A DNA stretch of 64,000 bases. It comes from Marinobacter sp. X15-166B. Lineage in GTDB: Bacteria > Pseudomonadota > Gammaproteobacteria > Pseudomonadales > Oleiphilaceae. Numbering within the stretch: the first letter of the stretch is position 1; the number at the start of each line of letters is the position of its first letter. The notes below the pieces were generated by a model. That model searched no databases. It worked only from the letters and a program-made list of their open reading frames with translations, and was not told the DNA's origin. Shown piece after piece: positions 8,208-64,000 of the stretch. Location of the stretch: positions 352,087 to 416,086 of the forward strand of contig NZ_MEIY01000001.1 in the NCBI RefSeq assembly GCF_001752365.1. Direction: 5' to 3'. Made by a program: the position numbers and the translations under genes.

Positions 8208-8269
8208 AAGGTTGGTGTGCTCTCCAGCGGATTGTTCGCCATAGTATGCGCCCTTGCGGGGTGTGCAAC

Positions 8270-8281
8270 ACCCTGCAGGGT
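8270..8281. repeat. 12-bp perfect palindrome ACCCTGCAGGGT
   Basis: Perfect palindrome in the 288-bp divergent space between DUF4112 and the acyl-CoA ligase. It sits ~60 bases upstream of the DUF4112 start and ~215 upstream of the ligase start. It could be an operator for either gene, or chance (it contains a PstI site). Confidence 0.25.
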
Positions 8282-8495
8282 ACATTAACTAACAGGGTGA
8301 AGACCGGGCAAGCCTCCGTCAACCAGGGCACAAGACGTGACCAAACTCACAAATAACTCAAGAAATCAGCTTGTTAGCCACTGAATGCGGGACTCGTTTT
8401 CATCCTTTCGAACGCTTCCGGTTTGCGCCCAACTGTGTCAGATTAGCTGCACATCTCGTTACAACATCAACAACCGAGAGCCAAGGAGCCCACTC

Positions 8496-10139: not shown

Positions 10140-10161
10140 GCCAACCCAGCCATTACTCCGT

Positions 10162-10188
10162 TAACCCGCCGGTTGGGCCTGCGGGTTA
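10162..10188. repeat. Inverted repeat between the ligase and DUF4442 genes
   Basis: TAACCCGC (10162-10169) and GCGGGTTA (10181-10188) form a perfect 8-bp stem with an 11-base loop, 23 bases after the ligase stop and 17 before the next start. No T-run follows, so it is more likely an mRNA processing/stability element or weak attenuator than a full terminator. Confidence 0.45.
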
Positions 10189-10205
10189 GCGGTGGAGCCT
10201 TTGCC

Positions 10206-14947: not shown

Positions 14948-15630
14948 GGTGTTACCCGATAGCTGTAGCCCAGGCCGCGTACGGTTTCGATGCGGTACGT
15001 TGCTTCGCCCCCCAGTTTGCGGCGGAGGTTGCTGATGTGCATGTCCAGAGTGCGGTCATAGACGGCGAGGCGGCGGCCCAGCGCCCACATCATCAGATCG
15101 GTTTTGCGCACCACACTGCCCGCATGGGCAAGCAACACCTGCAGGACCTCGTACTCGGTCGCGGTCAGATCTAACGGTGTGCCATCTTGCAGAATACGCC
15201 GCTGGGCCGGCTCCAGGGTCAGGTCGCCAACGATACGCGCGTCCCCGGTTTCGGCCTGCTGATCCCAGGCAATACGGCGCAACAACGCCTGCAAGCGTGC
15301 CACCAGCTCCCGTGGGTTACAGGGTTTGGGAATATAGTCGTCGGCACCCACTTCGAAGCCGACAATGCGGTCGGTTTCGTCACCCCGGGCGGTGAGCAGC
15401 ATAACCGGCAAATGGGTTCGCGCACGGATTTTACGCAACACTTCAAGGCCATTGATATCCGGCAGCATGAGATCCAGGACCACAATGTCACAATGATGCT
15501 CCACCGCCAGGGCGAGGCCATCGGTGCCATTGGCAGCTTCCCGGATAACAAACCCCTGCCCGGTCAGATAGCGGGCCAGCAGGCTGCGCAATTCATCATC
15601 GTCCTCAATCAACAATACCCGCTCTGACAT
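14944..15630 (-). CDS. OmpR-family response regulator, CpxR-like
   Basis: 228 residues. Receiver domain with acidic pair (IEDDDE), phospho-acceptor Asp 53 (VVLDLMLP), Thr (LLTARG) and Lys (YIPKPCNPRELVARL). The C-terminal winged helix ends LRRKLGGEATYRIETVRGLGYSYRV. First gene of the leftward operon, overlapping the kinase by four bases. A direct repeat at 15700-15717 in its own promoter region suggests autoregulation. Confidence 0.92.
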   Translation of the reverse strand: MSERVLLIEDDDELRSLLARYLTGQGFVIREAANGTDGLALAVEHHCDIVVLDLMLPDINGLEVLRKIRARTHLPVMLLTARGDETDRIVGFEVGADDYIPKPCNPRELVARLQALLRRIAWDQQAETGDARIVGDLTLEPAQRRILQDGTPLDLTATEYEVLQVLLAHAGSVVRKTDLMMWALGRRLAVYDRTLDMHISNLRRKLGGEATYRIETVRGLGYSYRVTP

Positions 15631-49180: not shown

Positions 49181-50233
49181 CGGCTCCTGCATTTCACCCA
49201 CCAGCACCCGCACCAAGTCTCCAGCGGGCATTTCCCGTGCCAGCGGCACACCTTGCCCCGCCCAGTGCGCGTTAAACTGCTGATTACCCTGTTTTCGGGC
49301 CGCAGCCCGGAGGGCCTTGCCTGCGTGATACACCATCGGGTAACCGGGCAGCTCCGGGGCGTCGGCGCCATCGATGTCCAGCCACCAGCGATCCACAAGA
49401 CCCCGTGCCGGCCGGCCAGAGATCACCGACGTAATACGCGTCCGGTCGGCGGTGGCCCCCTTGAGAGCCTCTCGATAGCTTGCGTCCGCCGCCGACTCGG
49501 GGCACAACACAAACGCGGTCCCCATTTGCACGCCGCAAGCCCCCGACGCCAGCGCAGCCCGGATACCCCGGCCGTCCATAATGCCACCGGCGGCAATTAC
49601 CGGGAGGTCACAGCGACTGGCCAACACGCGCACCAAGGCCAACACTCCGTAATCCGGTTTGCCGGCTTCCGGCGAGAACACACCGCTGTGGCCGCCGGCT
49701 TCAATGCCCTGCGCCACTATGCCGTGCAGCCCCGCCGCGGTGATGGCTTCGGCTTCGGCCAGGCTGGTGGCGGTTGCCAGCAGACGAATTCCCGCCGTTT
49801 TCAGGGCGCGAATCCAGCCCGGGTCGGGCAACCCAAAGTGAAAACTGACCACTGCGGGTTTTTCTGCCAGCAGCATGGCCAGCATCGGCTCGTTGTCGAC
49901 AAAACTCGGATAGGCCGCTTCCAGACGCGACGGAGCTGTGGCGCCGAACTCGGCAAAATATGGTGCCAGATGAGCCAGCCAGCCGGCCTCGACTTGCGCA
50001 TTCGCAACGGCGGGGCGGTGGCAAAACAGATTGACATTAAAGGGCTGCGACGTGAGCCGACGGGTGTGTTCGATCCACGCCTGTGCCTGGGCCACACTGC
50101 TCCCGCCCAGACCAATCGAACCCAGGGCGCCGGCATTGGACACCGCAGCGGCCAGTTCCGGGGTGGACGTGCCGGCCATTGGCGCCTGAATAATGGGGTG
50201 TGAAACCTTGATGATGCTGTCAAAGCCCGCCAT
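49178..50233 (-). CDS. Nitronate monooxygenase-like FMN enzyme, second paralogue
   Basis: 351 residues from ATG 50233 (AAGGAGCGG). NMO-family TIM barrel: HPIIQAPMAGTSTPELAAAVSNAGALGSIG, GLHGIVAQGIEAGGHSG (FMN phosphate), then LPVIAAGGIMDGRGIRAALASGACGVQMGTAF. It is longer than the paralogue at 18502-19479 and belongs to a different subgroup (class I-like with a C-terminal extension). Oxidises nitroalkanes such as propionate-3-nitronate to protect metabolism. Confidence 0.9.
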   Translation of the reverse strand: MAGFDSIIKVSHPIIQAPMAGTSTPELAAAVSNAGALGSIGLGGSSVAQAQAWIEHTRRLTSQPFNVNLFCHRPAVANAQVEAGWLAHLAPYFAEFGATAPSRLEAAYPSFVDNEPMLAMLLAEKPAVVSFHFGLPDPGWIRALKTAGIRLLATATSLAEAEAITAAGLHGIVAQGIEAGGHSGVFSPEAGKPDYGVLALVRVLASRCDLPVIAAGGIMDGRGIRAALASGACGVQMGTAFVLCPESAADASYREALKGATADRTRITSVISGRPARGLVDRWWLDIDGADAPELPGYPMVYHAGKALRAAARKQGNQQFNAHWAGQGVPLAREMPAGDLVRVLVGEMQEP

Positions 50234-50339
50234 GTTACCGCTCCTTGCATTACACGCTGAAGCTGCAACATACCACCCGGAGGCACCCGGCGAAATCACC
50301 CAGATCAATACGTCCGTTTTAGTGTGACGGGAACCCGCA

Positions 50340-50657
50340 TCATACCAGCAGCACAAGCAACGCCAGAGTTACCAGCACCACCAGCAAAAAACCCAGCGCG
50401 TAATCATCAATCCGGGGGTCACCGGAGGCCCGCCCCGGAGCGGTGCGGGGTTCGCCTTCGTACTCATCGATCAGTGCCCGCGCCTGCTTCAAATCGACGT
50501 CGTCCACCATCACGTTGGTGAATTCCCCGGCGCCGATTTCCCCCAGCGCCCCCTGCAGGTAATGCCCGCTGACATGGGCTGCAATGCCTTTGGTGCGCAG
50601 CATCCCGGCCACGATGTGGGCCTCGGTCAAATCCTGTGCCCGGTAAGCAATCTGCAT
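50340..50657 (-). CDS. DUF2007-like signal-transducing protein
   Basis: 105 residues from ATG 50657 (GTGGAGAG). The N-terminal domain MQIAYRAQDLTEAHIVAGML and the later EIGAGEFTNVMVDDVDLKQARALIDEY match the DUF2007/GlnB-fold-like family. The C-terminal helix (ALGFLLVVLVTLALLVLLV) anchors it to the membrane. Function unknown. Confidence 0.8.
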   Translation of the reverse strand: MQIAYRAQDLTEAHIVAGMLRTKGIAAHVSGHYLQGALGEIGAGEFTNVMVDDVDLKQARALIDEYEGEPRTAPGRASGDPRIDDYALGFLLVVLVTLALLVLLV

Positions 50658-50813
50658 CGGCTCTCCACTGGCAGCAGCGGCGCTTTGGCGCCACCGGTCG
50701 GACAGGTTCAGGGTGCGGGTCTGCAAGACCGCGGTCATTGATACGAAGGTCGTGTACTAGGGAAAGTATTGTCCGGCGACACGGTTTTTGCCACCGGACG
50801 GACCGCATTGATG

Positions 50814-52403
50814 CTAGGCGACGTCAGCCTGGCTGCGCAGGTAGTCGTCGTAACTGCCACTGAAGTCGGTGATACCATCGGCGCTCAGTTCAACGATCCG
50901 CGTCGCCAGTGAGGACACAAATTCGCGGTCATGGCTGACGAAAATCAGCGTACCGGGGTAATTTTCCAGCGCCAGGTTCAGGGCTTCGATGGATTCCATA
51001 TCCAGGTGGTTGGTGGGCTCGTCCATCATCATCACGTTGGGTTTTTGCAGAATCAGTTTGCCGAACAGCATCCGTCCCTGCTCCCCGCCGGATATAACCC
51101 GCACTGATTTGCCGATATCGTCACTGGAAAACAACATGCGCCCCAGGGTGCCGCGTACCAGTTGTTCGCCGCCGGTGGTCCACTGGGCCATCCACTCAGT
51201 CAACAGCAGGTCGTCGGCGAAATCGGCGGTGTGATCCTGCGCGAAATAACCCACCTCGGCACTGTCGGTCCATTTGATCTCGCCGTCGTCCGGCGCCAGG
51301 TTGCCCGCCAGACACTGCAGCAGGGTGGTTTTACCAATCCCGTTGGGGCCGATGATGGCGACCCGCTCCCCGGCTTCAATCTGCAAATTCAGGTTGCTGA
51401 ACAATGGCACCCCATCAAAGCCTTTGGTCAGGTTTTTGAGGGTCACCGCCTGGCGGTGCAGCTTTTTTTCCTGTTCGAAACGGATGAACGGACTCACCCG
51501 GCTGGACGGTTTGATGTCTTCCAGCTGAATTTTGTCGATCTGCCGGGCCCGGGAAGTGGCCTGTTTGGCTTTCGACGCGTTCGCCGAGAAGCGGCTGACA
51601 AACGACTGCAACTCGGCAATCTGGGCTTTCTTCTTGGCGTTATCCGCCATCATGCGCTCACGGGCCTGGGTGGCCGCGGTCATGTATTCATCGTAGTTGC
51701 CCGGGAACAGACGCAACTCACCGTAGTCCATATCGGCCATGTGGGTGCACACACTGTTCAGAAAGTGGCGGTCGTGGGAGATGATGATCATGGTGCTGTG
51801 CCGTTCCACCAGGATCCCCTCCAGCCAACGAATGGTGTTGATGTCCAGATGGTTGGTCGGCTCGTCCAGCAACAGCACGTCGGGATCGGAAAACAGCGCC
51901 TGGGCGAGCAACACCCGCAGCTTCCACCCCGGTGCCAGGGCGCTCATCGGGCCGGTGTGCTGGTCCAGCGGTATGTCCAGCCCCAGCAACAATTCGCCGG
52001 CACGGGATTCGGCAGTATACCCGTCCATTTCGGCAAACTGCACTTCCAGGTCCGCCACCGCCATGCCGTCTTCTTCGCTCATTTCCGGCAAGGAATAAAT
52101 CCGGTCGCGCTCCTCTTTGACCCGCCACAGTTCCTCGTGCCCCATGATGACCGTATCGATGACGGTGCAGTCTTCATAGGCGAATTGATCCTGACGCAGC
52201 TTACCCAGACGCACGTTGGGTTCGAGCATTACCTGCCCGACGGACGGCTCCAGATCGCCCCCCAGGATTTTCATGAAGGTGGACTTGCCGCAGCCATTGG
52301 CACCGATCAATCCGTAGCGATTACCGTTGCCGAATTTGACAGAAACGTTTTCAAACAGAGGCTTGGCCCCGAATTGCATGGCGAGATTAGCAGTGGAAAT
52401 CAA
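50814..52403 (-). CDS. ybiT: ABC-F family ribosome-associated ATPase YbiT
   Basis: 529 residues, the usual YbiT length. Two ATPase cassettes: Walker [10 protein letters not shown] and GPNGIGKTT, Walker [13 protein letters not shown] and [13 protein letters not shown], signature [17 protein letters not shown] (degenerate, as in YbiT) and [13 protein letters not shown]. The inter-domain linker ([34 protein letters not shown]) is YbiT-like. ABC-F proteins bind the ribosomal E site and resolve stalled translation. Confidence 0.95.
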
Positions 52404-52535
52404 GAGAGGAACCCATTCACAGTGAGGCGCAGCCGGGCGGCCGGCACAGAAAGACGGCGATTGTACAGGTTTGCAACCCCGTCTGTCAGGCAGGAAAAAC
52501 CCCGATACTCTGCCGGATCGTTACCGATCGGAGTA

Positions 52536-53387
52536 CTAGCCCGGACTGAACAGTTTCATTAACTGGCCGCTCAGAGTCTCGATGGGCTGGAGCACGGCAC
52601 TCTGGATGCTGCCGGTCACAACACGGCTGAAATCGGCGCCGTAGGCGGACTCCAGAAACTCGATGTACTGTTCCAGTTCAGCCGTGCTTAACGCCTCATA
52701 GGTGTACAGGTATGCGCCATAAACCTGCTCCTGCACCAGCGTGCGAATGGCGGAGCGCTGGTGTTCCACCTGCTGCCGAAGCTGCTCGAACCCGGCCCCG
52801 GTGCCGCCGTTCAGAGCGGCCAGCGCCGACGCCATGCCCAGCTGCACGGCAATGGCGGTATCCACCGTACTTTCAGTGGCTCGGGAGGCCGTATTGAAAC
52901 GCTCGAACAGCTGCGCCCGCCGGCTCCCCTGATACTGCTTTTTCAAGGCCCCTGCTGCCGTCTCGATACGCTGCCAGGCCACCGGACTGGAGGCGTCCAC
53001 TTCTGCCTGCACCACTTTTTGGCCCAGCGGGGTCGTGTACCATTTCTGCACGTTTTCCAGCTGCTGGTCGCTCAGGCCGGCATCCAGATCGCGCACAATC
53101 TGCGCACGAATACGGGCGCCATTGATGGTGCTGCCGACTATATTGGCCACGGTGTCCGCAATAAACGGATCCACTTTTCCCAGCTGTTTCAGACCATCCC
53201 GAATGCCTTTACTCATCATGGCCGGATACTGCTGCACCACCTGATCCAACGGCGAGGCCTTGACCACTGCCTCACTCAAGGGACTGGCACGCAGGGTGGT
53301 GGCGACCACCATCAGGGACATCAGCCACGCCACCGCGACCGGGACTCGGGCGGCACAGCTCACTGTTCGGGATAACACGTCTTGCAT
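52536..53387 (-). CDS. DUF2059 secreted protein
   Basis: 283 residues. Cleavable signal peptide (VPVAVAWLMSLMVVATTLRASP). All-helical mature part. DUF2059 pattern LSDQQLENVQKWYTTPLGQKVVQAEVDASS appears in the first half, and a second related helical block LSTAELEQYIEFLESAYGADFSRVV near the C-terminus. Periplasmic; function unknown. Confidence 0.8.
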   Translation of the reverse strand: MQDVLSRTVSCAARVPVAVAWLMSLMVVATTLRASPLSEAVVKASPLDQVVQQYPAMMSKGIRDGLKQLGKVDPFIADTVANIVGSTINGARIRAQIVRDLDAGLSDQQLENVQKWYTTPLGQKVVQAEVDASSPVAWQRIETAAGALKKQYQGSRRAQLFERFNTASRATESTVDTAIAVQLGMASALAALNGGTGAGFEQLRQQVEHQRSAIRTLVQEQVYGAYLYTYEALSTAELEQYIEFLESAYGADFSRVVTGSIQSAVLQPIETLSGQLMKLFSPG

Positions 53388-53514
53388 GGCACTCTCACTT
53401 TTGCACGATTGGAGTGCTGTTTATGACACGGACCGTCACAAAAGTAACGGCGGATCAGATGACAGTTTGGTAAGCGTTCGCCCCGAATCAGCCGGTTACC
53501 ACAGCAAGTACATG

Positions 53515-53868
53515 TTACAATTCAACAATGGGTTCGAAGCCGCCATAGATCAAACGTTTGCCATCAAAGGGCATCGGATTGTTCTCGGGCTGCAGCCGTG
53601 GATCTTGCATGACGCTGGCCATCCCCGCGTCCCGTACCGCCTTGGACGGCCAGGTAATCCACGAGAACACCACGGTTTCATCGGCCTTGCATTGCACTGC
53701 CAGAGGCAAGGACGTCAGGGTGCCTTCCGGCACGTCATCGCCCCAGCACTCGACAAAGTTCACCGCGCCGTGCTCCTTGAACACCGCGCCGGCATCGGCA
53801 GCGTACTGCCGATACACCTCTTTATTCGCCGTGGGCACGGCGGCCACAAATCCGTCGACGTAAGACAT
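53515..53868 (-). CDS. DUF1428/YbaA family protein
   Basis: 117 residues from ATG 53868 (GGGAGGA). Dimeric alpha-beta barrel pattern MSYVDGFVAAVPTANKEVYRQYA, NFVECWGDDVPEG, VVFSWITWPSKAVRDAGMASVM, then MPFDGKRLIYGGFEPIVE. YbaA-type protein, often called 'RNA signal recognition particle 4.5S RNA' in error. Function unknown. Confidence 0.92.
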   Translation of the reverse strand: MSYVDGFVAAVPTANKEVYRQYAADAGAVFKEHGAVNFVECWGDDVPEGTLTSLPLAVQCKADETVVFSWITWPSKAVRDAGMASVMQDPRLQPENNPMPFDGKRLIYGGFEPIVEL

Positions 53869-54005
53869 AGGCTTATCCTCCCGTTGGTCCGGACGCGCTA
53901 TAGTGTGCGCGTCGATGCCATCATCGCTCAGTTTCCCCATGGCCGGGAAGTCCTTTTATGATGGCGTCACACTTCGATTAACGGCCACCGACGCCAAGGG
54001 GCTTC

Positions 54006-54695
54006 ATGAACAGGTCTGCCCGTAAACGCCGCAACACCCTGCACCCTGCGCTCTACTGGTACGGATTGCCGGTTGCCGGCTTGCTGGTGGCGGTGTGGGC
54101 CACCCTGAGTCTCAGCCTGCTCGCTCCGGCTCCGCCCCGGAATCAAGACGATCTGTGCGAAATTTTTCGGGAGCAGCCCGGTTGGTACGACTACGCAGCG
54201 GCATCTGAAACACGCTGGGGCACCCCCATTGCGACCCAGATGGCATTTGTCTATTACGAATCGTCGTTTCGCAGCCATGCCCAACCACCCAGAACCAAAC
54301 TGTGGGGCGTGATTCCCTGGGTACGCTCTTCCTCAGCCTACGGTTACGCCCAGGCACTGGACCCCACCTGGGGGGATTACCTGAATGCCAATGGCAAGGG
54401 GCTGTTCGTGGTACGCACCCACATCAAACACGCCCTGGACTTCATTGGTTGGTACAACCATCTGACCCACCGGCATCTGGATATCCCCCTCACCGATGCC
54501 CAGCACCTGTATCTGGCTTACCACGAAGGCCGCACCGGCTATCGGCGTGGCACCTACAACGCCAAACCCGCCGTGGCCCGACTCGCCCGGCGGGTGGCCT
54601 CGCGCGCGCGTCAATACAACGCACAACTGGGAACCTGTGAGCAGGAATTTCAATGTTGGCGGTTTTATCAGTTCTGGCCATTTTGCGGGGATTAG
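54006..54695 (+). CDS. Lytic transglycosylase-like (SLT fold) membrane protein
   Basis: 229 residues. One N-terminal membrane helix (LPVAGLLVAVWATLSLSLLAP) and a periplasmic SLT-like domain: catalytic Glu in MAFVYYESSFRSHAQPP, then SSAYGYAQALDPTWGDY, LYLAYHEGRTGYRRGTY. No lipobox, so it stays anchored in the inner membrane. Cleaves glycan strands non-hydrolytically to anhydro-muropeptides. Likely a monocistron. Confidence 0.88.
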   Translation: MNRSARKRRNTLHPALYWYGLPVAGLLVAVWATLSLSLLAPAPPRNQDDLCEIFREQPGWYDYAAASETRWGTPIATQMAFVYYESSFRSHAQPPRTKLWGVIPWVRSSSAYGYAQALDPTWGDYLNANGKGLFVVRTHIKHALDFIGWYNHLTHRHLDIPLTDAQHLYLAYHEGRTGYRRGTYNAKPAVARLARRVASRARQYNAQLGTCEQEFQCWRFYQFWPFCGD

Positions 54696-54768
54696 CCTTG
54701 AAGGTTTACGGGAGCTGCGGCTTCTCTTATATTCTGTCCCACCTTTGCATCTTTAGTAGGGTCCATTT

Positions 54769-55656
54769 ATGTCCCGTAAAACCAGACAGTTACAAAAGCT
54801 TTTGTTGTTTCGACTGGCGGATCAGCGCCTGTTCGGCCTGGGCACACTGAAAATCCGCGAAATACTGCCCACCATGCGGCTCACCAAGCTCCCCCACAGC
54901 CACCCCGCGGTTATCGGTTCGGCGACCTTTCGCGACTCGGTGGTGCCGGTGATTGATATGGCCGCGGCCGTAGGCTACCCACCACTGACTCCGGAGGAAC
55001 GGGCCGGCGCGTCCATCATCGTCACTGACGTGCAACGCCGGGAAATCGGGTTTATGGTGCGCGGCGTGCAGCAAATCGTCGACACCGACTGGCAGGCGGT
55101 CACCCCTCCGCCCAAATCCCTCGGCAGCAAAGCCTTCATCAGCGGCTTGCTGGATCTGGAGGGCGACATCATCCAGCTCCTCGACGTGGAACTGCTGCTG
55201 GCCAAGGTCTATCCGGAATCCCTGCACAACCAACAGGTTTCCCTGACCGATGCCCAGATCGACTCGCTCCGGGCCCTGCATATTCTGTTGGTGGATGACT
55301 CGCTGGTGGCCCGCAAACAACTCTGTGATGCTCTGGACAGCAAAGACATCGGCTACCAGGTGACCACCAATGGCGACGACGCCCTGAATTACCTGCTCGA
55401 AGTTGCGTCCAGCGACAAGCCGGTGGACATACTGGTCAGTGATATTGAAATGCCCGGACTTGACGGGTACGAACTCACCTTCAATGTGCGGGATAACACC
55501 TCCCTGCACCAACCCTACGTTATCCTGCACACCTCTCTGAACAGCGAGATGAGTTTGAGCTACGCTAACCAGGTAGGGGCCAACGAAGCGCTGACCAAAT
55601 TTGACGCACAAGAACTGTTGCACGCCATGCTCCGGGGGGCCCCGCCCTCGCACTGA
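54769..55656 (+). CDS. cheV: Chemotaxis coupling protein CheV
   Basis: 295 residues. N-terminal CheW-like domain (~1-155: LLLFRLADQRLFGLGTLKIRE, NLDLEGDIIQLLDVELLL-type end) and C-terminal receiver (~170-295) with VDDS, phospho-acceptor Asp 225 (DILVSDIEMPGLDG) and HTSL as the Thr/Ser step, plus a Lys in ALTKFDAQ. It couples receptors to CheA and can adapt the response by its own phosphorylation. No other chemotaxis genes are in the window. Confidence 0.94.
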   Translation: MSRKTRQLQKLLLFRLADQRLFGLGTLKIREILPTMRLTKLPHSHPAVIGSATFRDSVVPVIDMAAAVGYPPLTPEERAGASIIVTDVQRREIGFMVRGVQQIVDTDWQAVTPPPKSLGSKAFISGLLDLEGDIIQLLDVELLLAKVYPESLHNQQVSLTDAQIDSLRALHILLVDDSLVARKQLCDALDSKDIGYQVTTNGDDALNYLLEVASSDKPVDILVSDIEMPGLDGYELTFNVRDNTSLHQPYVILHTSLNSEMSLSYANQVGANEALTKFDAQELLHAMLRGAPPSH

Positions 55657-55660
55657 AAAC

Positions 55661-55684
55661 AGCCACCGTCAGGTGGCTTGTTGT
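55661..55684 (+). terminator. Probable terminator after cheV
   Basis: AGCCACC-GTCA-GGTGGCT (55661-55678) followed by TGTTGT, starting five bases after the cheV stop codon. The T-run is short, so termination may be partial; the esterase gene follows in the same direction. Confidence 0.55.
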
Positions 55685-55707
55685 CCGTCTCTGCTGGAGA
55701 GCCATTA

Positions 55708-56817
55708 GTGATCGCAATCTGGGTAACCCTGACGCTCGCTGTCTTGTTGGTTGTCACCACCGGCTTTTTTCTCGCCAGCTTTTTGTTCTTGCGGAGCCAT
55801 GATCATTCGTATCTGGATGCCGGGCCATCGCGCCCCCGGTCCGCGCCCCCGCAAACCGGCCCAACACCCAGCCCGGCCCATGAGGACGTACTCGCCACCG
55901 TCGCCAGACTGATAGATTCCAGCCGGGGGCTGAGGGGCAAGGCGCGGCTGCAGGCCATGCGCTCGGCGTTGGAGAGCCTGAGTGACGGTAAATCCTTCAC
56001 CAGCCGCCGGCGTCCGGTGAATGAACAGGGGATCAGGGGAGAATGGGTGGTCGCGCCGGAGAGTCGCCCGGATCACCGGATTCTGTACATCCACGGCGGT
56101 GCCTGGGTGGCCGGCAGCCCTAAAAGCCACCGCGCTATCACCGACAAGCTGGCGCGCATATCCGGTGCGTCGGTGTTCGTACTGGATTACCGGCTGATGC
56201 CCGAGCACCGGTTTATGCAGGGCATCGAGGATTGTCGCAACGCCTACCGCTGGATTCTCGAGCAGGGTCCCGATGGTCCGACAGCGGTCACTTTCCTGGC
56301 CGTGGCGGGCGACTCGGCGGGAGGCAGCAATGCCCTCGGACTGCTGGCATGGGCCAGAGATCAACGCTTGCGCCAGGCCGACGCCGGCATCGCCCTCTGC
56401 CCCTCCACCGACCTGACACTCACCGCCCCCAGCCTGCGCACCAATCTGCGCACCGATCCCATGCTCGGGCCCGCCCTGGGCGCCCTTGCCTACATCCCCA
56501 AACCGGTGTTGTGGTGGGCCACAATGCTGGGCACCCGCACCGCCCCGACCAACCCCGTCGCCTCACCGCTCTACGGTGATCTCGCGGGCCTGCCGCCGAT
56601 TCTGGTGCACGCCAGCGAGGCTGAGATGCTGCTGGATGGTGCGCGCCGTTATGTGGCCAAGGCGCAGGCCGCCGGATCGCCCGTGGAGTTGCAGACCTGG
56701 CCCCACATGGTCCATGTGTGGCACTTTTTTACTCCGGAATTGCCCGAAGCGGAAGATGCCTACGAAAAAATCGCAGCGTTTCTGCACACCCATCGCAAGC
56801 ACGCCGACGCAGGCTGA
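55708..56817 (+). CDS. HSL/fold-3 alpha/beta-hydrolase (esterase)
   Basis: 369 residues from GTG 55708 (GGAGAG); an upstream TTG reading is less likely. N-terminal membrane anchor (VTLTLAVLLVVTTGFFLASFLFL). Esterase motifs: oxyanion HGGAWVAGSPKSHR, nucleophile GDSAGGSNALG, acid/His in the C-terminal LPPILVHASEAEMLLDGAR and WPHMVHVWHFF. A hormone-sensitive-lipase-type carboxylesterase held to the inner membrane; natural substrate unknown. Confidence 0.9.
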   Translation: MIAIWVTLTLAVLLVVTTGFFLASFLFLRSHDHSYLDAGPSRPRSAPPQTGPTPSPAHEDVLATVARLIDSSRGLRGKARLQAMRSALESLSDGKSFTSRRRPVNEQGIRGEWVVAPESRPDHRILYIHGGAWVAGSPKSHRAITDKLARISGASVFVLDYRLMPEHRFMQGIEDCRNAYRWILEQGPDGPTAVTFLAVAGDSAGGSNALGLLAWARDQRLRQADAGIALCPSTDLTLTAPSLRTNLRTDPMLGPALGALAYIPKPVLWWATMLGTRTAPTNPVASPLYGDLAGLPPILVHASEAEMLLDGARRYVAKAQAAGSPVELQTWPHMVHVWHFFTPELPEAEDAYEKIAAFLHTHRKHADAG

Positions 56818-56847
56818 ACCCCGCTGCACCGGCCCGGGCACACTCGG

Positions 56848-57363
56848 TTACCGATTCGCGTGCAGCTCTGCCAGCACTTCCTTACACACCTGGTCCTGGG
56901 TTTTGTTCGCGCCGCGAATCACCAGGTCCGCATACCGGGCATACAGCACCCGGCGCTCTGCGAACAGCTCTTCGAGACTCTGCTCGGGGCGCTTGGAAAT
57001 GCCCCGCAGACTGAAGTCGCCAATGCGTTCGCGCACCGTCGCCAGCGGTATATCCAGATAGACCACCACGCTTCTGGTTTTCAGGTGTGCCATGGCTTTG
57101 CTGCTGTAGACCGCACTGCCACCGGTGGCGATCACGTGGCCGCGCACATTCAGCCCACACAACACCTGCTCTTCAACCTGGCGCAGCGCCTCGTAGCCTT
57201 CCTGGTCGACGATCTCCTGCAGGGCGCGACCGGTGTGCGTCTGGATCAACACATCGGTGTCCACAAAATCCAGCGCGGCTGCCTTGGCCAATACCACGCC
57301 GACCGTGCTCTTGCCTGAGCCGGGCATACCTATCAATACTATATTTCTGAGTGGCGACGGCAT
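56848..57363 (-). CDS. aroK: Shikimate kinase
   Basis: 171 residues: Walker A GMPGSGKSTVG, shikimate site DFVDTDVLIQTHTGRALQEIVDQEG with FR-like LRQVEEQVL, the GGS motif in VIATGGSAVYS, and the LID SLRGISKRPEQSLEELFAERRVLYARYAD. Phosphorylates shikimate in the aromatic pathway. It lies apart from aroB and is closer to stand-alone AroL-like forms. Divergent from the PA2779/PA2778 pair. Confidence 0.9.
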   Translation of the reverse strand: MPSPLRNIVLIGMPGSGKSTVGVVLAKAAALDFVDTDVLIQTHTGRALQEIVDQEGYEALRQVEEQVLCGLNVRGHVIATGGSAVYSSKAMAHLKTRSVVVYLDIPLATVRERIGDFSLRGISKRPEQSLEELFAERRVLYARYADLVIRGANKTQDQVCKEVLAELHANR

Positions 57364-57499
57364 AACTACATTCTTCGTTGGTACAGTGCATTACCAGGTC
57401 TTAATCCGGCATGATCGGAAACCTGCCCACAAGCGTTTACACTAGCGCAATAAGTGGTTCAATAACATAGCTGAACAAAGGAATCCCAGGAGCAGATTC

Positions 57500-57901
57500 A
57501 TGCAAGCAATCAGAGCGTATACGCAATCGATTTCCACCCTCATGGCGCTGGTCATGATGCTGACGTCGGTGTGGGCCCTGCCAGCCTCCGCCAGTCTGGT
57601 CGGCACCGGCGAACTGCTCACCGAACAGCGTGCAAACATCGACCGCCAGGCCCTGATGGACATGCTGGAACGGGGCGACGTGCAAAACACCCTGGCCACT
57701 CTGGGCGTGGGCGAGCAGGAGGTGCGGGACCGGATCCAGAGCCTGACCCCGTCCGAACTGGCGGATTTCAAACAGCAACTGGCGGAAGCACCCGCCGGTG
57801 AAGGCGTTGTCGGTGTGATTGTATTGTTTCTGCTGGTGTTCATCGTCACCGATATGCTGTGCGCAACCGACATCTTCCCGTTCGTCAACTGCATCCGGTA
57901 A
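57500..57901 (+). CDS. PA2779 family protein
   Basis: 133 residues with signal peptide (LMALVMMLTSVWALPASAS). Mature N-terminal LLTEQRANIDRQALMDMLERGDVQNTLATLGV, then RIQSLTPSELADFKQQLAEAPAG, and a C-terminal helix GVVGVIVLFLLVFIVTDMLCATDIFPFV. This is the PA2779 family, always next to a PA2778-type peptidase, which follows. Presumed envelope-bound partner or substrate; role unknown. Confidence 0.88.
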   Translation: MQAIRAYTQSISTLMALVMMLTSVWALPASASLVGTGELLTEQRANIDRQALMDMLERGDVQNTLATLGVGEQEVRDRIQSLTPSELADFKQQLAEAPAGEGVVGVIVLFLLVFIVTDMLCATDIFPFVNCIR

Positions 57902-57912
57902 CCGACCGCCCG

Positions 57913-58869
57913 ATGTATCCGGCCTGTTCCCAACCGGTCCGTTTCCTGCTGGCCGCACTGCTGGGCGTGTTGCTCTCGGGGTGCGCCAGCAGCCCCCCAT
58001 GGCCGCCGGATGCCTCTGCAACAATCCTCACCCACGTCCCCTTTCACCCCCAGGAGCAATATCAGTGCGGGCCTGCTTCCCTGGCAATGATGCTTAATGC
58101 CCAGCAGGTCGATGCCAGCCCGGACGAGCTGATCGAGCGGGTCTACCTGCCCGGCCGCAAAGGCGCCTTGCAGGTGGAAATGGTGGCGGCCGCCCGCCAA
58201 TACGGCATGCTGGTATACCCGCTGGCACCGGACCTTGCCAGTGTGCTGGCGGAAGTGGAGGCCGGGCACCCGGTGCTGGTGCTGCAGAATTTGCGCTTCA
58301 ACTGGTGGCCCCAGTGGCATTTTGCCGTGGTCATCGGGTTCGACGGAGACACGGAAGCCCTGATTCTTCATACCGGCACCCAGGAGCGTTACCGCCAACC
58401 TGCGGCGGCTTTTATGGCCACCTGGAACCGGGCGAACCGTTGGGCCCGGGTAATCCTGCCCCCCGGTCAGCTGCCGGCGACCGCGCAACCGCTTCCCTAT
58501 CTGATGGCCGCCCACGACCTGGAAACCACCCGGCAAACCGGCGCCGCCCAATCGGCCTATAGGGCCGCCCGTCGGGCCTGGCCAGACCAGCCCGCCGCGC
58601 TGCTGGGGCTGGGCAACATCGCCTATGACCAGGGCCGGTGGGCCACAGCGGTGGACTATTACCGCGCCCTGACCGAGCGGTTCCCTGACCTGGGTGCCGG
58701 CTGGAACAATCTGGCCGAGGCGTTACGGAAACAGGGCTGTCCGGTCGCAGCTGCAGCGGCCTCGCGCACCGCGCACCGGTTGGAGCCTGACCGTTTCCCG
58801 CCCACCGCAAACGATCCTCCCGGCACCGATCCAGCGGGGTGCTGCCCCGCGCCGGACCGGCACTGCTGA
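57913..58869 (+). CDS. PA2778 family cysteine peptidase lipoprotein
   Basis: 318 residues from ATG 57913 (an earlier in-frame ATG lies inside the neighbour). Lipobox LLSGC (about Cys 22). C39-like peptidase domain with catalytic Cys in QEQYQCGPASLAMMLN, His in WPQWHFAVVIGFDGD. TPR-like repeats (GAAQSAYRAARRAW, GLGNIAYDQGRWATAVDYYRALTERFP, NNLAEALRKQGCP) form the C-terminus. Gene pair with PA2779. Confidence 0.9.
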   Translation: MYPACSQPVRFLLAALLGVLLSGCASSPPWPPDASATILTHVPFHPQEQYQCGPASLAMMLNAQQVDASPDELIERVYLPGRKGALQVEMVAAARQYGMLVYPLAPDLASVLAEVEAGHPVLVLQNLRFNWWPQWHFAVVIGFDGDTEALILHTGTQERYRQPAAAFMATWNRANRWARVILPPGQLPATAQPLPYLMAAHDLETTRQTGAAQSAYRAARRAWPDQPAALLGLGNIAYDQGRWATAVDYYRALTERFPDLGAGWNNLAEALRKQGCPVAAAAASRTAHRLEPDRFPPTANDPPGTDPAGCCPAPDRHC

Positions 58870-58876
58870 GCGGGCT

Positions 58877-59290
58877 TCAGGGCCCCGGCGCGCCGCCCTC
58901 GCGTTCCAGTTCCGCCTCCGCTACCAGCCAGCTCCGAAAGATTTCGGCGTGGGGATGGATATACTTATGGGCGGGGCGCACCAGATGAAAGGCTTCGGCG
59001 GTCGGTACCTTGTGGGCAAACGGCGCCGTCAGCAACCCTCGGCGGATCATATCGTCAACCAGACAAGTACGGCCGAGGGCAAAGCCATCGCCACACTTGG
59101 CGACTTCGAGCGCCGAGATGAGTGTGTCAAACTGGATTTCCTGGGCAAAACAGAGGTCGGCCAAACCCGCCTGATCGAGCCAGTGCCCCCAGCCTTCCTC
59201 GTACCCGATAACGTGCAGCAGAGTCTGTTCGCGCAATTGTTCGCTGAGCTCCGGGTGCGCTGAATCAGACAGGCCAGCCTGCGGCTGCAC
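58877..59290 (-). pseudogene. LysR-family regulator fragment (DddR-like position)
   Basis: The frame (137 codons from a GTG at 59290) is only the second half of a LysR-type regulator: REQTLLHVIGYEEGWGHWLDQAGLADLCF, FDTLISALEVAKCGDGFALGRTCLVDDMI and the C-terminal effector-domain end (EIFRSWLVAEAELERE). The helix-turn-helix domain and about 170 N-terminal residues are missing. The sequence joins the end of the preceding dehydrogenase remnant with no start site, so it cannot make a working regulator. In ddd clusters dddR sits exactly here. Confidence 0.85.
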
Positions 59291-59294
59291 TCGT

Positions 59295-60313
59295 TTACTT
59301 CATTGTCGGCATCGAGAACTCGACGCCCTCGCGTACACCGGCGGAGGGCCAGCGCTGAGTAATCGCTTTGCGACGGGTGTATAAAGCGCACCCCGTCCGG
59401 CCCGTAGGCGTGCAAGTCGCCAAACAGGGAGCGTTTCCAGCCGCCAAAGCTGTGATAAGCCACCGGCACCGGCAGAGGCACGTTGACACCGACCATGCCC
59501 ACCAGAATGTTATCAGTGAAATAACGGGCGGCTTCGCCATCGCGGGTAATCAACGGTCCAAAATCATTGCCGGGCTCGTCGTAGGCCCCCACTTTGAGGG
59601 TCTTCATCGCCTCGGCCATCTTGGCCACCAGGGCGTCGCCCGCGGCATCCCCCACTGCAACCGCGACCGACAGCGCCATACAGCGTTCGCCCGAGGAGCC
59701 AAAAGCTGCCCCCAGCAGCTGGTTCACCGCGTTATCCATGTCCGCATCGGGCATGATAATGGCGTGGTTTTTGGCTCCGCCCAGAGCCTGGCACCGTTTG
59801 CCGTGCGCGCTGGCGGTGCGGTAGATGTGTTCGGCAATCGGCGTTGAACCCACAAAGCTGACCGCCTGGATGCGGGCATCTGTGAGCAGCACATCCACCG
59901 CTTCCTTGTCGCCATTAACCACGTTCATGACGCCGTCGGGCAAACCGGCTTCCTGCAGCAGCTGGGCGATGAACAGCGCGGAGCTGGGATTGCGTTCCGA
60001 GGGCTTGAGCACAAAACAGTTGCCGCAAACGATGGCCATGGGGTACATCCACAGGGGCACCATGGCCGGGAAGTTAAACGGGGTGATGCCTGCAACCACG
60101 CCCAGCGGTTGCAACTCACTCCAGGTATCAATGCCCGGGCCGACCCTGGGACTGTGCTCGCCTTTCAACAGTTCAGGTGCACCGCAGGCGTACTCAACAT
60201 TCTCGATGCCCCGCTGCAGCTCTCGCAGGGCATCGTGTTGAATCTTGCCGTGCTCCTCACCGATCAGGCGGGCAATCTGTTCCGCATTCTGTTCCAGCAA
60301 TTCCTTGAAGATG
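59295..60313 (-). pseudogene. Methylmalonate-semialdehyde dehydrogenase remnant (DddC-like)
   Basis: Recognisable CoA-acylating aldehyde dehydrogenase: GVVAGITPFNFPAMVPLWMYP, KPSERNPSSALFIAQLL and the Cys motif GAAFGSSGERCMALSVAV (nucleophile). Lesions: 5' end begins at the equivalent of residue ~75 (EIFKELLEQNAEQIARLI); an in-frame loss of ~90-100 residues between DFGPLITR and DGEAARYF (junction 59542-59550); an extra base near 59382 shifts the end, so GVRF is followed out of frame by YTRRKAITQRWPS and GVEFSMPTMK, ending at TAA 59295. The long unbroken frame seen here is therefore misleading. Confidence 0.88.
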
Positions 60314-60343
60314 ATTGTCTAACCGGTTGGCCGGCTGCCGGTG

Positions 60344-61501
60344 TCACCAGAGTTGCTGGTACAGCTCGATAATCTCATCGGCACTGGGTACCCGGGGGTT
60401 ATTACCCGGTGAACCGGACTGCAGGGCCTGCTCCGCCATGGTCGGCATGAGGCGGAAAAATTCGTCCCGGTCGATGCCAAACACCTCGGGTGTAGGCACC
60501 TCCAGTTCGTCATTCAGGGCATACAGCTCGGCCATCAATTTGTTGTTGGCCACATCGTTGCTGTCTTGTTCCGAGGCCACCCCCATAGCGCGGGCACAGT
60601 CCGCATAACGGGCGGCGGCGGCGGGAATGGAAAACTCGGTAACCGCAGGCAGCAACATGGCGTTGGACATGCCATGGGGCACGTGGAACGCGGCACCAAT
60701 CGGGCGGCTCATGCCATGCACCAGCGCGACCGAGGCGTTGGAAAAAGCAATGCCGGCCAGGGTGGAGCCCAGCATGACCTGCTCACGGGCACGCTGGTCG
60801 GTACCGTCATGGAACACCCGGCGCAGGTTGGGGGCAATCAGGCGCATCGCCGCAAGCGCCTGGCTGTCGGTATACAGACTGGCCTTGCGGCTGACGTAAG
60901 CTTCCATCGCGTGCGTCAAGGCATCAATGCCGGTATCCGCGGTGGTGCGCTTGGGCAGGCTCAGGGTCAGACCATAATCCACCAGCGCCGCCACCGGCAT
61001 GAACCCCACCCCCATACACATCATTTTTTCGTCGTTGGACTCATCGGTAATGATGGTAATCCGGGTCACTTCCGAACCGGTCCCGGCGGTAGTGGGTATG
61101 GCAACAATCGGCAACCCTTGTTCGTTAACGATACGCGGAAATTTGTAATCCCGCATGGTACCGCCGTACTTACCCAGGATGCTGATGGCCTTGGCGCTGT
61201 CGATGGGACTGCCGCCGCCCAAGGCAATGATGCTGTCGTAGGCACCGTCGCGCACTTTGGCCACTCCCGCCTGAATGGAACTGACGGTGGGTTCCGGTAC
61301 CGTGTCATCGAAAACGTCCGCCGACAACTCACTGGCAGCGAGGCACTCCTGAATGGCCCGGGTGTAACCCAGTTGTACCATCATCTTGTCGGTGATGATG
61401 AGCGGGCGGCTGCAGCCCAGGCTTGCCAGCACTTGTGGCAATTGCCGGGAGGCACCGTCGCCGATTTGCAGGATGCGCGGTAGAATGACTTGGGTAACCA
61501 T
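60344..61501 (-). CDS. dddB: Iron-containing alcohol dehydrogenase (DddB-like)
   Basis: 385 residues, AGGTGAAG ribosome site, complete. Group-III alcohol dehydrogenase pattern: NAD site SIIALGGGSPIDSAKAISI, TTAGTGSEVTRITI, metal ligands in the segments TGIDALTHAMEAYVS and ALVHGMSRPIGAAFHVPHGMSNAMLL (His residues). Fits DddB, proposed to oxidise 3-hydroxypropionate (or a DMSP product) to malonate semialdehyde. Located between BCCT and DddC remnants, as in dddTBCR operons. It is the only intact member of that set here; whether it is expressed is not visible. Confidence 0.8.
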   Translation of the reverse strand: MVTQVILPRILQIGDGASRQLPQVLASLGCSRPLIITDKMMVQLGYTRAIQECLAASELSADVFDDTVPEPTVSSIQAGVAKVRDGAYDSIIALGGGSPIDSAKAISILGKYGGTMRDYKFPRIVNEQGLPIVAIPTTAGTGSEVTRITIITDESNDEKMMCMGVGFMPVAALVDYGLTLSLPKRTTADTGIDALTHAMEAYVSRKASLYTDSQALAAMRLIAPNLRRVFHDGTDQRAREQVMLGSTLAGIAFSNASVALVHGMSRPIGAAFHVPHGMSNAMLLPAVTEFSIPAAAARYADCARAMGVASEQDSNDVANNKLMAELYALNDELEVPTPEVFGIDRDEFFRLMPTMAEQALQSGSPGNNPRVPSADEIIELYQQLW

Positions 61502-61571
61502 AATTGCTTCACCTGTGTCTGAATCAGAGCCTTCCCAGCGGGGCCGAGGCTCTGGGTATTGTTGTTGAGTC

Positions 61572-61778
61572 TCAGAGAGCGCCTGGAGCAGCGGCCACGT
61601 CCGATTTGCCCACCTGGGGTTGAGCGGGGGCTGACACCCGGACGGGTTGGGGCTGCCTCCCTGTTATAGCCTCATCGCGCAGGGATTTAAACAGCCCGTA
61701 GATTGCCAGGATCAAAATGACTGAAAACGGCAGCGCCGCAACGACGGTGGCGGTCTGCAGTGCACCCGCCACCCAGCC
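61572..61778 (-). pseudogene. C-terminal fragment of a BCCT transporter (DddT-like)
   Basis: The last ~70 codons of a BCCT-type carrier: final helix ALQTATVVAALPFSVILILAIYGLFKSLRDEA, then a polar tail to the stop at 61572-61574. BCCT carriers characteristically end this way (…ALPFS…LRDE). The rest, more than 400 residues, is absent; the junction with foreign sequence is about 61772-61784. In the frame beyond it the product is nonsense. Confidence 0.8.
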
Positions 61779-61781
61779 AGC

Positions 61782-61868
61782 GTCGGCTACAGCGAAACGG
61801 AAATCGACTCGATGATTGAACGCAAGATCGCCGGACTCAACTGGAGCAAGGAATACCTCCCCAGTTAA
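61782..61868 (+). pseudogene. C-terminal tail of a CaiB/BaiF CoA-transferase (DddD-like)
   Basis: On the plus strand the last 28 codons of a class III CoA-transferase: GYSETEIDSMIERKIAGLNW, then SKEYLPS and TAA at 61866-61868. 'LGYSxxEI' is the usual C-terminal motif of CaiB/BaiF enzymes. The fragment abuts the BCCT tail on the other strand. In ddd loci dddD is divergent from dddT, so this orientation is what a deletion from inside dddT through the promoter to near the end of dddD would leave. I infer DddD from position; the tail alone is not proof. Confidence 0.6.
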
Positions 61869-61904
61869 GCAACCCATCACAACACCGGTCACCGCCCACA
61901 ACCC

Positions 61905-61933
61905 GCCAGCCCCACGATGGGGCTGGCTTTCTT
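61905..61933 (+). terminator. Intrinsic terminator, relic of the deleted dddD-like gene
   Basis: GCCAGCCCCA-CGA-TGGGGCTGGC (61905-61927) followed by TTTCTT. Perfect 10-bp stem on the plus strand, 36 bases after the stop codon of the CoA-transferase tail. It has outlived the gene it served. Confidence 0.85.
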
Positions 61934-61964
61934 GTGACAAGCGATTACGCTTTTATCTGCAGCC

Positions 61965-62951
61965 GTGCTAAACGGCCCGCTTGGTTGCATTGCCCCTGAC
62001 CATCACCCGGGAATCATAGCCATAGGTATCCGATCCGCAGTCATACCAGGCAAGCTGGCGCGCGCCCTGCTGGTTCTGGTGCTCCTGCCGTTATTTTTCA
62101 TCGGCGGCCCGGACTGGGCCGACGGCCCCTTCTATAAGGCCCTGTGGAATTTGGGCCACATCCTGTTCTTCGGTTTGCTGACCCTGGTGCTCCAGCCGCA
62201 ACGCTGGCTGGGTGGCTGGCGTTTGGTGACCGTCACTACGGGCGCGGTGCTGGTGGCTGGCGGGCTGATCGAGTGGTTGCAGGGCAGCCTCGACCGGGCG
62301 GCCGACTGGCACGATATGGGGCGCAACCTGATCGGTGCCTGGCTGGTGCTGGCATGGGCGCACAGGCCCCGCAGGTCCGCCACCGGTGTGGGGCTGGCCC
62401 GGCTTCTGGTGACCGCACTGCTGTTGTGGGAACTGGGGCTGGTTGCCGTCATCGGTCTGCGGCAGTGGCAGCTGGCGATTCAGCTGCCACTGCTCTACGA
62501 TTTCGCCCAGCCGGATCCGCAGCGGTTCTGGGACGGCCAGGTGCAGCGATCCACCAGATACAGCGGCCTGAGCGACCGCGAGTTCAGCCTCAGAGTTGAG
62601 CTTGACACCGAGCGATACTCGGGGGCATCCCTCGACAATCTGGCCAGTGACTGGCGGGACTATCGGCACCTGGTGCTGATCCTGTACAACCCGGATCAGG
62701 ACCCACTGGCCATGACCTTGCGCATCAATGACCGCGCCCACGATCGGGGGAATAACGCCTATGAGGATCGTTTCCATACCCGCCTGGTCGTGGCGCCCGG
62801 CCTGAACCGGTTTGCCGTCCCGCTGACCGATGTACAGCAAGCGCCGGCTGGCCGCGCAATGGCCATGGACGCCATTCGCCGGCTGCTGCTGTTCACCTCC
62901 CGCCAACCGGCACCCAGAACGGTGTACCTGCTCGACCTGAGACTGCAGTAA
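61965..62951 (+). CDS. VanZ-like membrane protein
   Basis: Up to 328 residues from GTG 61965; no Shine-Dalgarno is visible and the first ~30 residues may be non-coding, so the true start is uncertain. Four to five N-terminal helices with the VanZ pattern LGHILFFGLLTLVLQP, GGLIEWLQGSLDRAADWHDMGRNLIGAW (Glu-Leu-Gln and Asp-x-x-x-N). The second half is periplasmic, beta-rich (LYDFAQPDPQRFWDG, LRVELDTERYSGASLDNLASDWRDYRHL). Unusual VanZ fusion; function unknown. Confidence 0.72.
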   Translation: MLNGPLGCIAPDHHPGIIAIGIRSAVIPGKLARALLVLVLLPLFFIGGPDWADGPFYKALWNLGHILFFGLLTLVLQPQRWLGGWRLVTVTTGAVLVAGGLIEWLQGSLDRAADWHDMGRNLIGAWLVLAWAHRPRRSATGVGLARLLVTALLLWELGLVAVIGLRQWQLAIQLPLLYDFAQPDPQRFWDGQVQRSTRYSGLSDREFSLRVELDTERYSGASLDNLASDWRDYRHLVLILYNPDQDPLAMTLRINDRAHDRGNNAYEDRFHTRLVVAPGLNRFAVPLTDVQQAPAGRAMAMDAIRRLLLFTSRQPAPRTVYLLDLRLQ

Positions 62952-62958
62952 ACGCCAT

Positions 62959-63933
62959 TCAGTCACGGTCTCTGACGAGGTTTTGCAGGCGCCTGGTCAG
63001 CGCGTCGGCATCCATGGGGTGGGCGCTGATGGCTTCGAGCCGGCTCAGAGCGGTGGCCGTGGTTGCCCGCACGGTGACCGCACCGTCACTGCTGTTGATC
63101 GTGCGCCAGCCAGCGCTGGTGCGCACCACCGCTTTGAACCGTGCGAAACCAGCCTCCCCGACCAGGGTCAGCAAGCCGCGCTCGTCCAGGACAATACTGG
63201 CGGGCAAGCGCCAGCCAACGCTGAAATAGCCCTGCCCCTCGTTGGTCAACACTTGCCATGACGCCTGCGTCACCGGCGCCGCTGTCGCTGGCTGCGGGTG
63301 CAGATGAGATTCCGGGGTGGCAACCCGGTTCAGCGCACTGGCGCCCTCCAGCCACGCAAGATCCAGGCGTCCCTCGCGGGTGTGAAAGACCGCCCGTTTT
63401 GCAGGGCTCACGCGGGCCGCCCAGGCGTCGAAATGCGCCAGCTGGGCGGCGTCACACACATCGGTTTTGTTGGCCACCAGTATATCCGCCGTGGCGACCT
63501 GATCCTGAAACTGCACACTGGCCAGCACCCGGGGCTCTTCGAGCCGCCGTGGATCCACCAGACACAACACCGGACCCAATTCCAGCACGTTGCGGTAATG
63601 CTCCCCCGTCAGCGTGGCGAGGACCTGGGCGGGATGGCCCAATCCGGTCGGTTCGATCAGCAGGCGGTCGGGGCGTGCCTGTCTGATCAGCCGGTTCAGC
63701 CCGACTTGCATCGGCAGGCCCGCCACACAACACATGCACCCGCCCGGGACCTCGTGCACGAACGCTCCCTGTTCCTGCAGCAATGCGCCATCGATACCGA
63801 CTTCACCAAACTCATTGACCAGCACGGCCCACACCTCGTGGGACGGTTTTTGTTTGAGCAGCTCAGCAATGGCGGTGGTTTTACCGACCCCGAGAAAGCC
63901 GAGGACAAGTGTTGTGGGTATGGGGGATTTCAT
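62959..63933 (-). CDS. COG0523 GTPase metallochaperone (CobW/YjiA family)
   Basis: 324 residues. P-loop GFLGVGKTT (12-20), Walker B-like LVNEFGEVGIDGALL, the metal motif GGCMCC (Cys 66, 68, 69), NKTD at ~155 (guanine specificity), and the C-terminal CobW_C domain (WQVLTNEGQGYFSVGWRLPA). It uses GTP hydrolysis to deliver Zn2+ or another metal to a client. No Zur-like box is visible in the ~65 bases to the window edge, so metal regulation is unproven. Confidence 0.92.
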   Translation of the reverse strand: MKSPIPTTLVLGFLGVGKTTAIAELLKQKPSHEVWAVLVNEFGEVGIDGALLQEQGAFVHEVPGGCMCCVAGLPMQVGLNRLIRQARPDRLLIEPTGLGHPAQVLATLTGEHYRNVLELGPVLCLVDPRRLEEPRVLASVQFQDQVATADILVANKTDVCDAAQLAHFDAWAARVSPAKRAVFHTREGRLDLAWLEGASALNRVATPESHLHPQPATAAPVTQASWQVLTNEGQGYFSVGWRLPASIVLDERGLLTLVGEAGFARFKAVVRTSAGWRTINSSDGAVTVRATTATALSRLEAISAHPMDADALTRRLQNLVRDRD

Positions 63934-64000
63934 AGAACGGGGTCACTCAGGTCAGGTTTATCAGCCGGGGGCATGAAAATGCTATGATACCGTCTCTTGC

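Follow-up and report, generated by a model that had tools for sequence, protein, structure and literature searches.

Ordered remnants of a DMSP operon around a whole dddB gene in Marinobacter sp. X15-166B

Dimethylsulfoniopropionate (DMSP) is an abundant algal sulfur compound, and its cleavage is a main source of the gas dimethyl sulfide (DMS). Readers of genomes often treat the ddd genes as a trait that is either present or absent. What should be made, then, of a ddd locus in which one gene is whole and the other four are fragments? Such a locus lies at 58877..61868 in a stretch of 64,000 nucleotides (the window) from Marinobacter sp. X15-166B, whose genome is 3.49 Mb long, in 4 contigs, and 99.94% complete. 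Our reading, which we hold with considerable confidence from sequence comparison, is that these are the ordered remnants of an operon, dddD divergent from dddT-dddB-dddC-dddR, likely cut in place by at least four deletions; that DddD-type cleavage was likely lost; and that dddB likely works as a stand-alone gene. From right to left, the following survives:

61776..61868, plus strand: dddD remnant, the last 30 codons and the stop (tblastn, blastn)
61572..61767, minus strand: dddT remnant, the last 63 codons (BCCT C-terminus) and the stop (tblastn, Pfam)
60344..61501, minus strand: dddB, whole, an iron-containing alcohol dehydrogenase of 385 aa (tblastn, Pfam)
59545..60309, minus strand: dddC remnant 1, codons 71-325, an open frame (tblastn, NCBIfam)
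59292..59544, minus strand: dddC remnant 2, about codons 417-498, frameshifted by a 1-bp indel (blastn, tblastn)
58877..59244, minus strand: dddR remnant, the LysR C-terminal part from about codon 192 (Pfam, likeness to DddR)

As tblastn queries against the window we used all five ddd proteins of Marinobacter sp. ELB17 (L015/G103; L and G numbers are our handles for loci and genomes); the DddD of G103 is 100% identical to that of L015. All five remnants proposed in an earlier note, made from the sequence alone, were found where that note had placed them, with Pfam agreeing for four of the five. DddD residues 808-837 matched at 61776-61865 on the plus strand (73% identity, E 1e-8), and the DNA of this tail is 77% identical to ELB17 and 81% to G112 (blastn). 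On the minus strand, DddT 509-571 matched at 61575-61763 (54%, E 2e-11), and DddB 1-385 at 60347-61501 (91%) without a stop, bearing out that dddB is still whole with its 385 open codons. DddC 71-325 matched at 59545-60309 with 90% identity to ELB17 (93% to G112); DddC 393-470 and 464-498 followed in two frames at 59298-59628, a remnant that is 84% identical to ELB17 with one gap in blastn. DddR 174-303 matched at 58910-59299 (67%), and over 111 residues the piece is 75-77% identical to DddR of ELB17 and G026.

Family models point the same way. The Pfam models Fe-ADH and ADH_Fe_C span dddB, the open part of dddC scores 274.5 bits against Aldedh, and the dddR piece covers positions 99-207 of the 209 of LysR_substrate (35.6 bits). 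The dddT tail covers the last 32 positions of the BCCT profile (454-485 of 485) at 24.3 bits, just below the cut-off of 27. Because the gene is cut short, the dddC pieces score 431.5 bits against the NCBIfam model of methylmalonate-semialdehyde dehydrogenase (MMSDH), under its cut-off of 448.5, and the 30-residue DddD tail is too short to match any Pfam or NCBIfam model. Thirty of 837 residues are thus left of DddD and 63 of 571 of DddT; DddC is without about codons 1-70 and 326-416 and is frameshifted, and DddR is reduced to its C-terminal part. A working DddD-type locus has a complete DddD with two CaiB domains and complete DddT, DddC and DddR, none of which is present here, and dddC and dddR are probably inactive as well. 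The closest solved structure to DddD is a formyl-CoA transferase (E 2e-21); none is close.

Are the pieces truly ddd? Our control set held 84 ddd-locus records, 15 paralogue loci of the same genome (4 CaiB, 5 aldehyde dehydrogenases, 6 BCCT) and 20 generic CaiB loci of the genus. The DddD tail matched 62 of the 84 ddd-locus records (best 55.1 bits), none of the 20 generic CaiB loci, and one own paralogue locus by a chance match of 18.5 bits. The DddT tail scored 67 bits to ddd against 35 bits to the best own BCCT transporter, and the two DddC pieces 481 and 102 bits against 310 and 76 bits to the best own MMSDH. The DddR piece reached 180 bits and matched 61 of the 84 records, against 40 bits among the 15 own loci, a weak control because these loci were not selected as LysR genes. 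Every piece is closer to ddd proteins than to any paralogue tested, and no tail fits unrelated CoA-transferases or transporters better, which would have undone the earlier assignment.

The order of the pieces is also that of intact loci. Searching species genomes with the window's DddB gave 513 matching stretches; we kept the best 80 loci, 63 of them with full 7-kb flanks. The layout D- T+ B+ C+ R+ (dddD on one strand, the others on the opposite one) occurs in 36 of the 80, or 31 of the 63 with full flanks; the others read D- B+ C+ R+ (9), B+ C+ only (13), B+ only (10) or otherwise (12), some being cut by contig ends. As the note had expected of relatives, all eight fetched Marinobacter loci with a whole DddD and a whole DddB share this layout, although dddT of G026 is broken. 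On a 4.2-kb contig of G119, truncated at either end, dddD, dddT and dddB follow each other in this order. In G003 (L134:9976-13671), DddD is adjoined by DddR, with no DddB or DddC on the 20-kb stretch.

Two published accounts describe dddD divergent from dddTBC and regulators in a Marinomonas MWYL1-like arrangement (PMC10746254, PMC9327192). The remnants resemble that of Marinomonas sp. MWYL1 in gene set, order, strands and the whole DddB, and differ from it in that dddD, dddT, dddC and dddR are truncated or frameshifted and the region between dddD and dddT is gone. The DddX cluster of Psychrobacter, described as dddT, dddX, dddC, dddB (PMC8163506), is not what we see, since the DddD tail speaks against it. 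The closest of the kept loci is that of ELB17, where dddD and dddT-dddB-dddC-dddR are all whole. The ddd locus of G026 belongs to the same DddB clade and likewise has a gene broken by internal gaps; in contrast to the window, this is dddT only, with dddD, dddB, dddC and dddR whole. The broken dddT (L129:12569-13366) has three internal gaps with match overlaps of 7, 2 and 5 bp.

How was the operon reduced? The gaps of the window coincide within a few tens of bases whether it is compared with ELB17, G112, G026 or SS21. Against ELB17, at least four stretches are missing (blastn; breakpoints in reversed L130, strand not applicable), alongside a 1-bp gap near the dddC end that shifts the frame:

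61767..61776: D1, dddD/dddT junction; 4197 bp of ELB17 replaced by 8 bp, breakpoints 7496 to 11694
60309..60333: D2, after dddB and through about codons 1-70 of dddC; 274 bp of ELB17 replaced by 23 bp, breakpoints 13134 to 13409
59545..59549: D3, inside dddC; 273 bp gone in frame, matches overlapping by 5 bp, breakpoints 14173 to 14442
59244..59292: D4, dddC end and N-terminal part of dddR; 716 bp of ELB17 replaced by 47 bp, breakpoints 14698 to 15415

At D1, about codon 808 of dddD abuts codon 508 of dddT, and the divergent intergenic region is gone too. D2 takes the gap between dddB and dddC with about 70 dddC codons, and D4 reaches to about dddR codon 192. The missing stretches are likely deletions from an intact ancestor, at least four in number; D1, at about 4.2 kb, would have removed most of dddD, most of dddT and the region between them, perhaps in several events. 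A repeat scan found no long direct repeat at the junctions, and the short overlaps, 5 bp at D3 and those in the G026 dddT, are too short to prove a mechanism.

What DMSP capacity is left in the cell? No second DddD was found in its genome; besides the tail there are four generic CaiB matches of 31-38% identity over about 200 residues. The genome does encode six other BCCT transporters and three intact MMSDH enzymes scoring over the cut-off. Within a comparison set of 124 Marinobacter genomes, X15-166B is the only one in which a bare DddD tail replaces the gene (E <= 0.001). The last 71 residues of DddD matched nine whole genes and the bare tail, as well as, over part of their length, a single duplicated fragment in ELB17; two further weak matches (31%) sit in generic CaiB frames, and more diverged remnants would be missed by this search. 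The ELB17 fragment (L142:7460-7830) is a recent copy of the dddD 3' end (99.6-100%) with an internal gap, about 45 kb from the ddd locus and separate from the intact gene. The cupin DMSP lyase model PF16867 has 0 matches in the X15-166B genome, in a search that did not extend to DddP, DddY, DddX and DmdA; it is matched in 11 of the 124 genomes at E <= 0.001 and in 10 above its cut-off, and published Marinobacter isolates carry dddL (PMC9327192). Our conclusion is that DddD-type cleavage of DMSP, and with it this route to DMS, is likely gone from the cell.

In the course of events that we favour, an intact dddD and dddTBCR operon at this site would have suffered the deletions in place, D1 taking most of dddD and dddT. 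The whole dddB would persist as a stand-alone dehydrogenase, and DddB is predicted still to be made. Its substrate may be 3-hydroxypropionate or another short alcohol of that kind; oxidation would yield the semialdehyde, for which one of the three intact MMSDH-type dehydrogenases from other parts of the genome might be the next enzyme.

The state of dddB itself fits a working enzyme. In a quick tree without bootstrap, the window's DddB is a full-length Fe-ADH within the DddB clade and groups with ELB17, G026 and G112 (100*), with the DddB of M. caseinilyticus next to this group (85). The motif GGGS and the residues D193, H197, H262 and H276 are kept and correspond in position to the NAD site and the metal-binding residues of lactaldehyde reductase, the enzyme from which we take over the ligand roles. 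Codon models with a branch-specific dN/dS ratio (omega) were fitted to 12 taxa for dddB and 11 for the dddC piece. For dddB, the window branch has an omega of 0.038, with a profile interval of about 0.02-0.07 and a background of 0.047 (p 0.52), and an omega of 1 was rejected (p 7e-11). The M. caseinilyticus branch gave 0.029 (p 0.09 against background). The dN/dS of the dddR piece was saturated (branch length 12) and was set aside.

Several findings nevertheless weigh against our reading. Most of them would also suit a strong alternative, to which we give somewhat less than even weight: that the locus is simply eroding, and that dddB, of no use to the cell, owes its wholeness only to having escaped the lesions so far and will be lost in turn. 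When five lesions are placed at random, at least one gene escapes in 16% of cases (29% given D1), so selection on dddB is not proven by its survival alone; dddB itself is left whole in 0.8% (6.9% given D1). The dddC piece still looks constrained, as it would if little time had elapsed, with an omega of 0.058 (interval about 0.03-0.11) against a background of 0.030 (p 0.07). Its interval overlaps that of dddB, and the decay may therefore be too young for a distinction. A search of 60250-62100 for sigma-70-like promoters gave 0 against 0.6 expected, and DddB carries two odd residues, L161M and L278M, in 2 of 149 otherwise invariant columns, where 85 of the 93 rows have fewer changes. Two further points bear on the loss and the site: the search for a substitute lyase covered PF16867 only, and no ddd locus was found at the same chromosomal site in the relatives examined.

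Against simple erosion, the omega of dddB is not raised, whereas that of dddC tends upwards. Had dddB been free for as long as dddC appears to have been, which we estimate at about 3% of the branch, an omega of about 0.075 would be expected, a value disfavoured by the likelihoods (2dlnL 5.0). Judging from the two omegas and their overlapping intervals, the decay appears young relative to the branch and dddB without sign of release. The alternative also sits poorly with the conservation of stand-alone dddB genes elsewhere in the genus.

DddB was found in 18 of the 124 genomes (E <= 1e-100), nine with DddD (one at a contig end) and nine, including X15-166B, without. Among these nine without DddD, only G027 matches PF16867, at a score below the cut-off; the other eight do not match it. 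G022 and G027 (87% complete) have dddC beside dddB. No other ddd genes were seen near dddB in the 15-20 kb inspected in G004, G020 and G066, nor within the 1.5 kb inspected on each side in G072, G106 and G124; the G072 stretch lies letter for letter in a 15-kb M. gelidimuriae locus, where there is no other ddd gene either. In M. caseinilyticus (L001:7001-8155, G066), dddB stands alone in a genome without DddD, and its product is 85% identical to ELB17 DddB; the dddB stretch of G066 (L146) recurs unchanged within L001. Like the window, it has DddB without an adjoining dddD; unlike the window, it shows no ddd remnants within 7 kb on each side.

Another stand-alone form is linked to cyd genes:

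G004 L138:4151-11183: cyd-linked dddB; the same arrangement in L064, L066 and L141, and partly in L152 and L153

This clade has six rows from five genomes (ELB17, G004, G026, G124, and G072 with M. gelidimuriae). In every row dddB lies about 30 bp downstream of cydC, preceded, where the stretch reaches, by cydA-, cydB- and CydD-type genes; in G004, CydB, CydD and CydC score above their NCBIfam cut-offs and the cydA-type gene does not. Omega for the cyd-linked dddB is 0.08, and a value of 1 is rejected (p 1e-58). ELB17 and G026 have this gene in addition to a ddd locus, while G004, G072 and G124 are without DddD. As in the window, DddB is found here without dddD beside it, but it forms a separate DddB lineage from the window's.

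Where does the window's locus sit in the chromosome? It is bounded by a gene for a PA2778-family cysteine peptidase of C39 type (57859-58869, plus strand; NCBIfam 349 bits) and by a gene at 61965-62951 (plus strand), and aroK lies about 3 kb from dddB. The latter boundary gene had been called VanZ-like, a label that needs slight correction, as Pfam VanZ matches it weakly (17.1 bits, cut-off 30.1). The matches to ELB17 stop at the dddD stop codon and near the dddR end, so the flanks of the window differ from those of ELB17. The ELB17 locus is among the nearest relatives in its genes (DddB and the DddC piece) and differs in its neighbours, where similarity ends.

Neither an intact locus nor an empty site between the same neighbours was found in the 124 genomes, and the close strain that the note had asked for, with an intact locus between PA2778-type and VanZ-like genes, did not turn up. 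The neighbours are common in the genus, yet were not seen together: C39 in 109 of the 124 genomes (E <= 1e-20), VanZ-like in 65 (E <= 1e-10) and AroK in 106 (E <= 1e-30). Of those 65, the best 29 loci outside the window were inspected with flanks of up to 1.5 kb, and they showed none of the window's other neighbours and no ddd genes. We also fetched nine C39 or VanZ regions; the six C39 ones all had DUF6627 and none had VanZ, CobW or AroK. In one of these C39 regions, that of G124, a BCCT gene of generic type (38% to DddT) lies at a distance of 2 kb. With no ddd locus found at the same site in relatives, the loss is not datable by a sister strain. The note's claim of a recent loss of DMSP lysis therefore stands as regards loss, while "recent" leans on the well-kept DddC piece, as the search gave no intact sister strain and no DddB closer than 91% among the 8000 candidate proteins sharing most words. 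In G020 (L139:7407-9455), a stand-alone dddB adjoins an aroK resembling the window's. We take this as a likely coincidence, because AroK is nearly universal and the DddB of G020 is a long branch.

A different history, which we think improbable, is that the operon was never complete here, the ddd segment having come in by horizontal transfer already truncated or as a mosaic. This would suit the flanks found here, which the ddd loci of relatives do not share, and the patchy presence of DddD, whole in 9 of the 124 genomes and at a contig end in 1. However, the gap inside dddC and that between dddC and dddR need deletions anyway, and of the two outer ends one coincides exactly with the stop codon of dddD and the other falls near the dddR end. 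An assembly error, in which the missing stretches are collapsed or chimeric, is very unlikely given four separate junctions in so complete a genome of 4 contigs, where the missing parts of DddD and DddT are found nowhere else. The idea that the tails are chance neighbours, left from unrelated genes for a CoA-transferase, a transporter and a regulator, gains a little from the 30-residue DddD tail and the weak LysR control, and is barely credible when the ddd scores exceed those of the tested paralogues and five of five pieces fall in ddd order.

Some features around the locus deserve mention. A DUF6627 gene is paired with the PA2778-type C39 peptidase (window 57500-58869), as it is in 6/6 of the fetched C39 regions of relatives. 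A scan of 50000-64000 with Rfam found no RNA family at the gathering score. A DddB relative from Amphritea atlantica is recorded on a plasmid, which hints at a way in which ddd loci could move. Beyond dddD lies one candidate element, placed by consensus match only:

61905..61927, plus strand: putative terminator hairpin, 36 bp past the dddD stop, with a 10-pair stem and a T-rich tail

An eroded operon is an ordinary fate of an accessory pathway; no account of a decayed ddd locus turned up in the literature searched. The clear fossil order and the question of the stand-alone dddB make this one noteworthy. Together with the broken dddT of G026, the locus forms a graded series of accessory-pathway loss. 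For the reading of genomes, dddB alone is not a safe marker of DMSP cleavage, since the lyase is gone here with dddB whole and 9 of the 18 DddB-bearing genomes of the genus are without DddD. More tentatively, and as a possibility to which we give less than even weight, dddB may be a detachable module that repeatedly outlives or leaves the DMSP operon and is kept by selection in Marinobacter, acting with MMSDH-type enzymes on 3-hydroxypropionate or another short alcohol not derived from DMSP, and becoming the last gene of a cytochrome bd cluster (cydAB-cydDC) in one lineage. If so, the window would capture the transition between intact loci, such as those of ELB17 and G112, and clean stand-alone genes, such as that of M. 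caseinilyticus. The stand-alone dddB genes, in one lineage placed behind cydC, raise the question of what other role this dehydrogenase may have.

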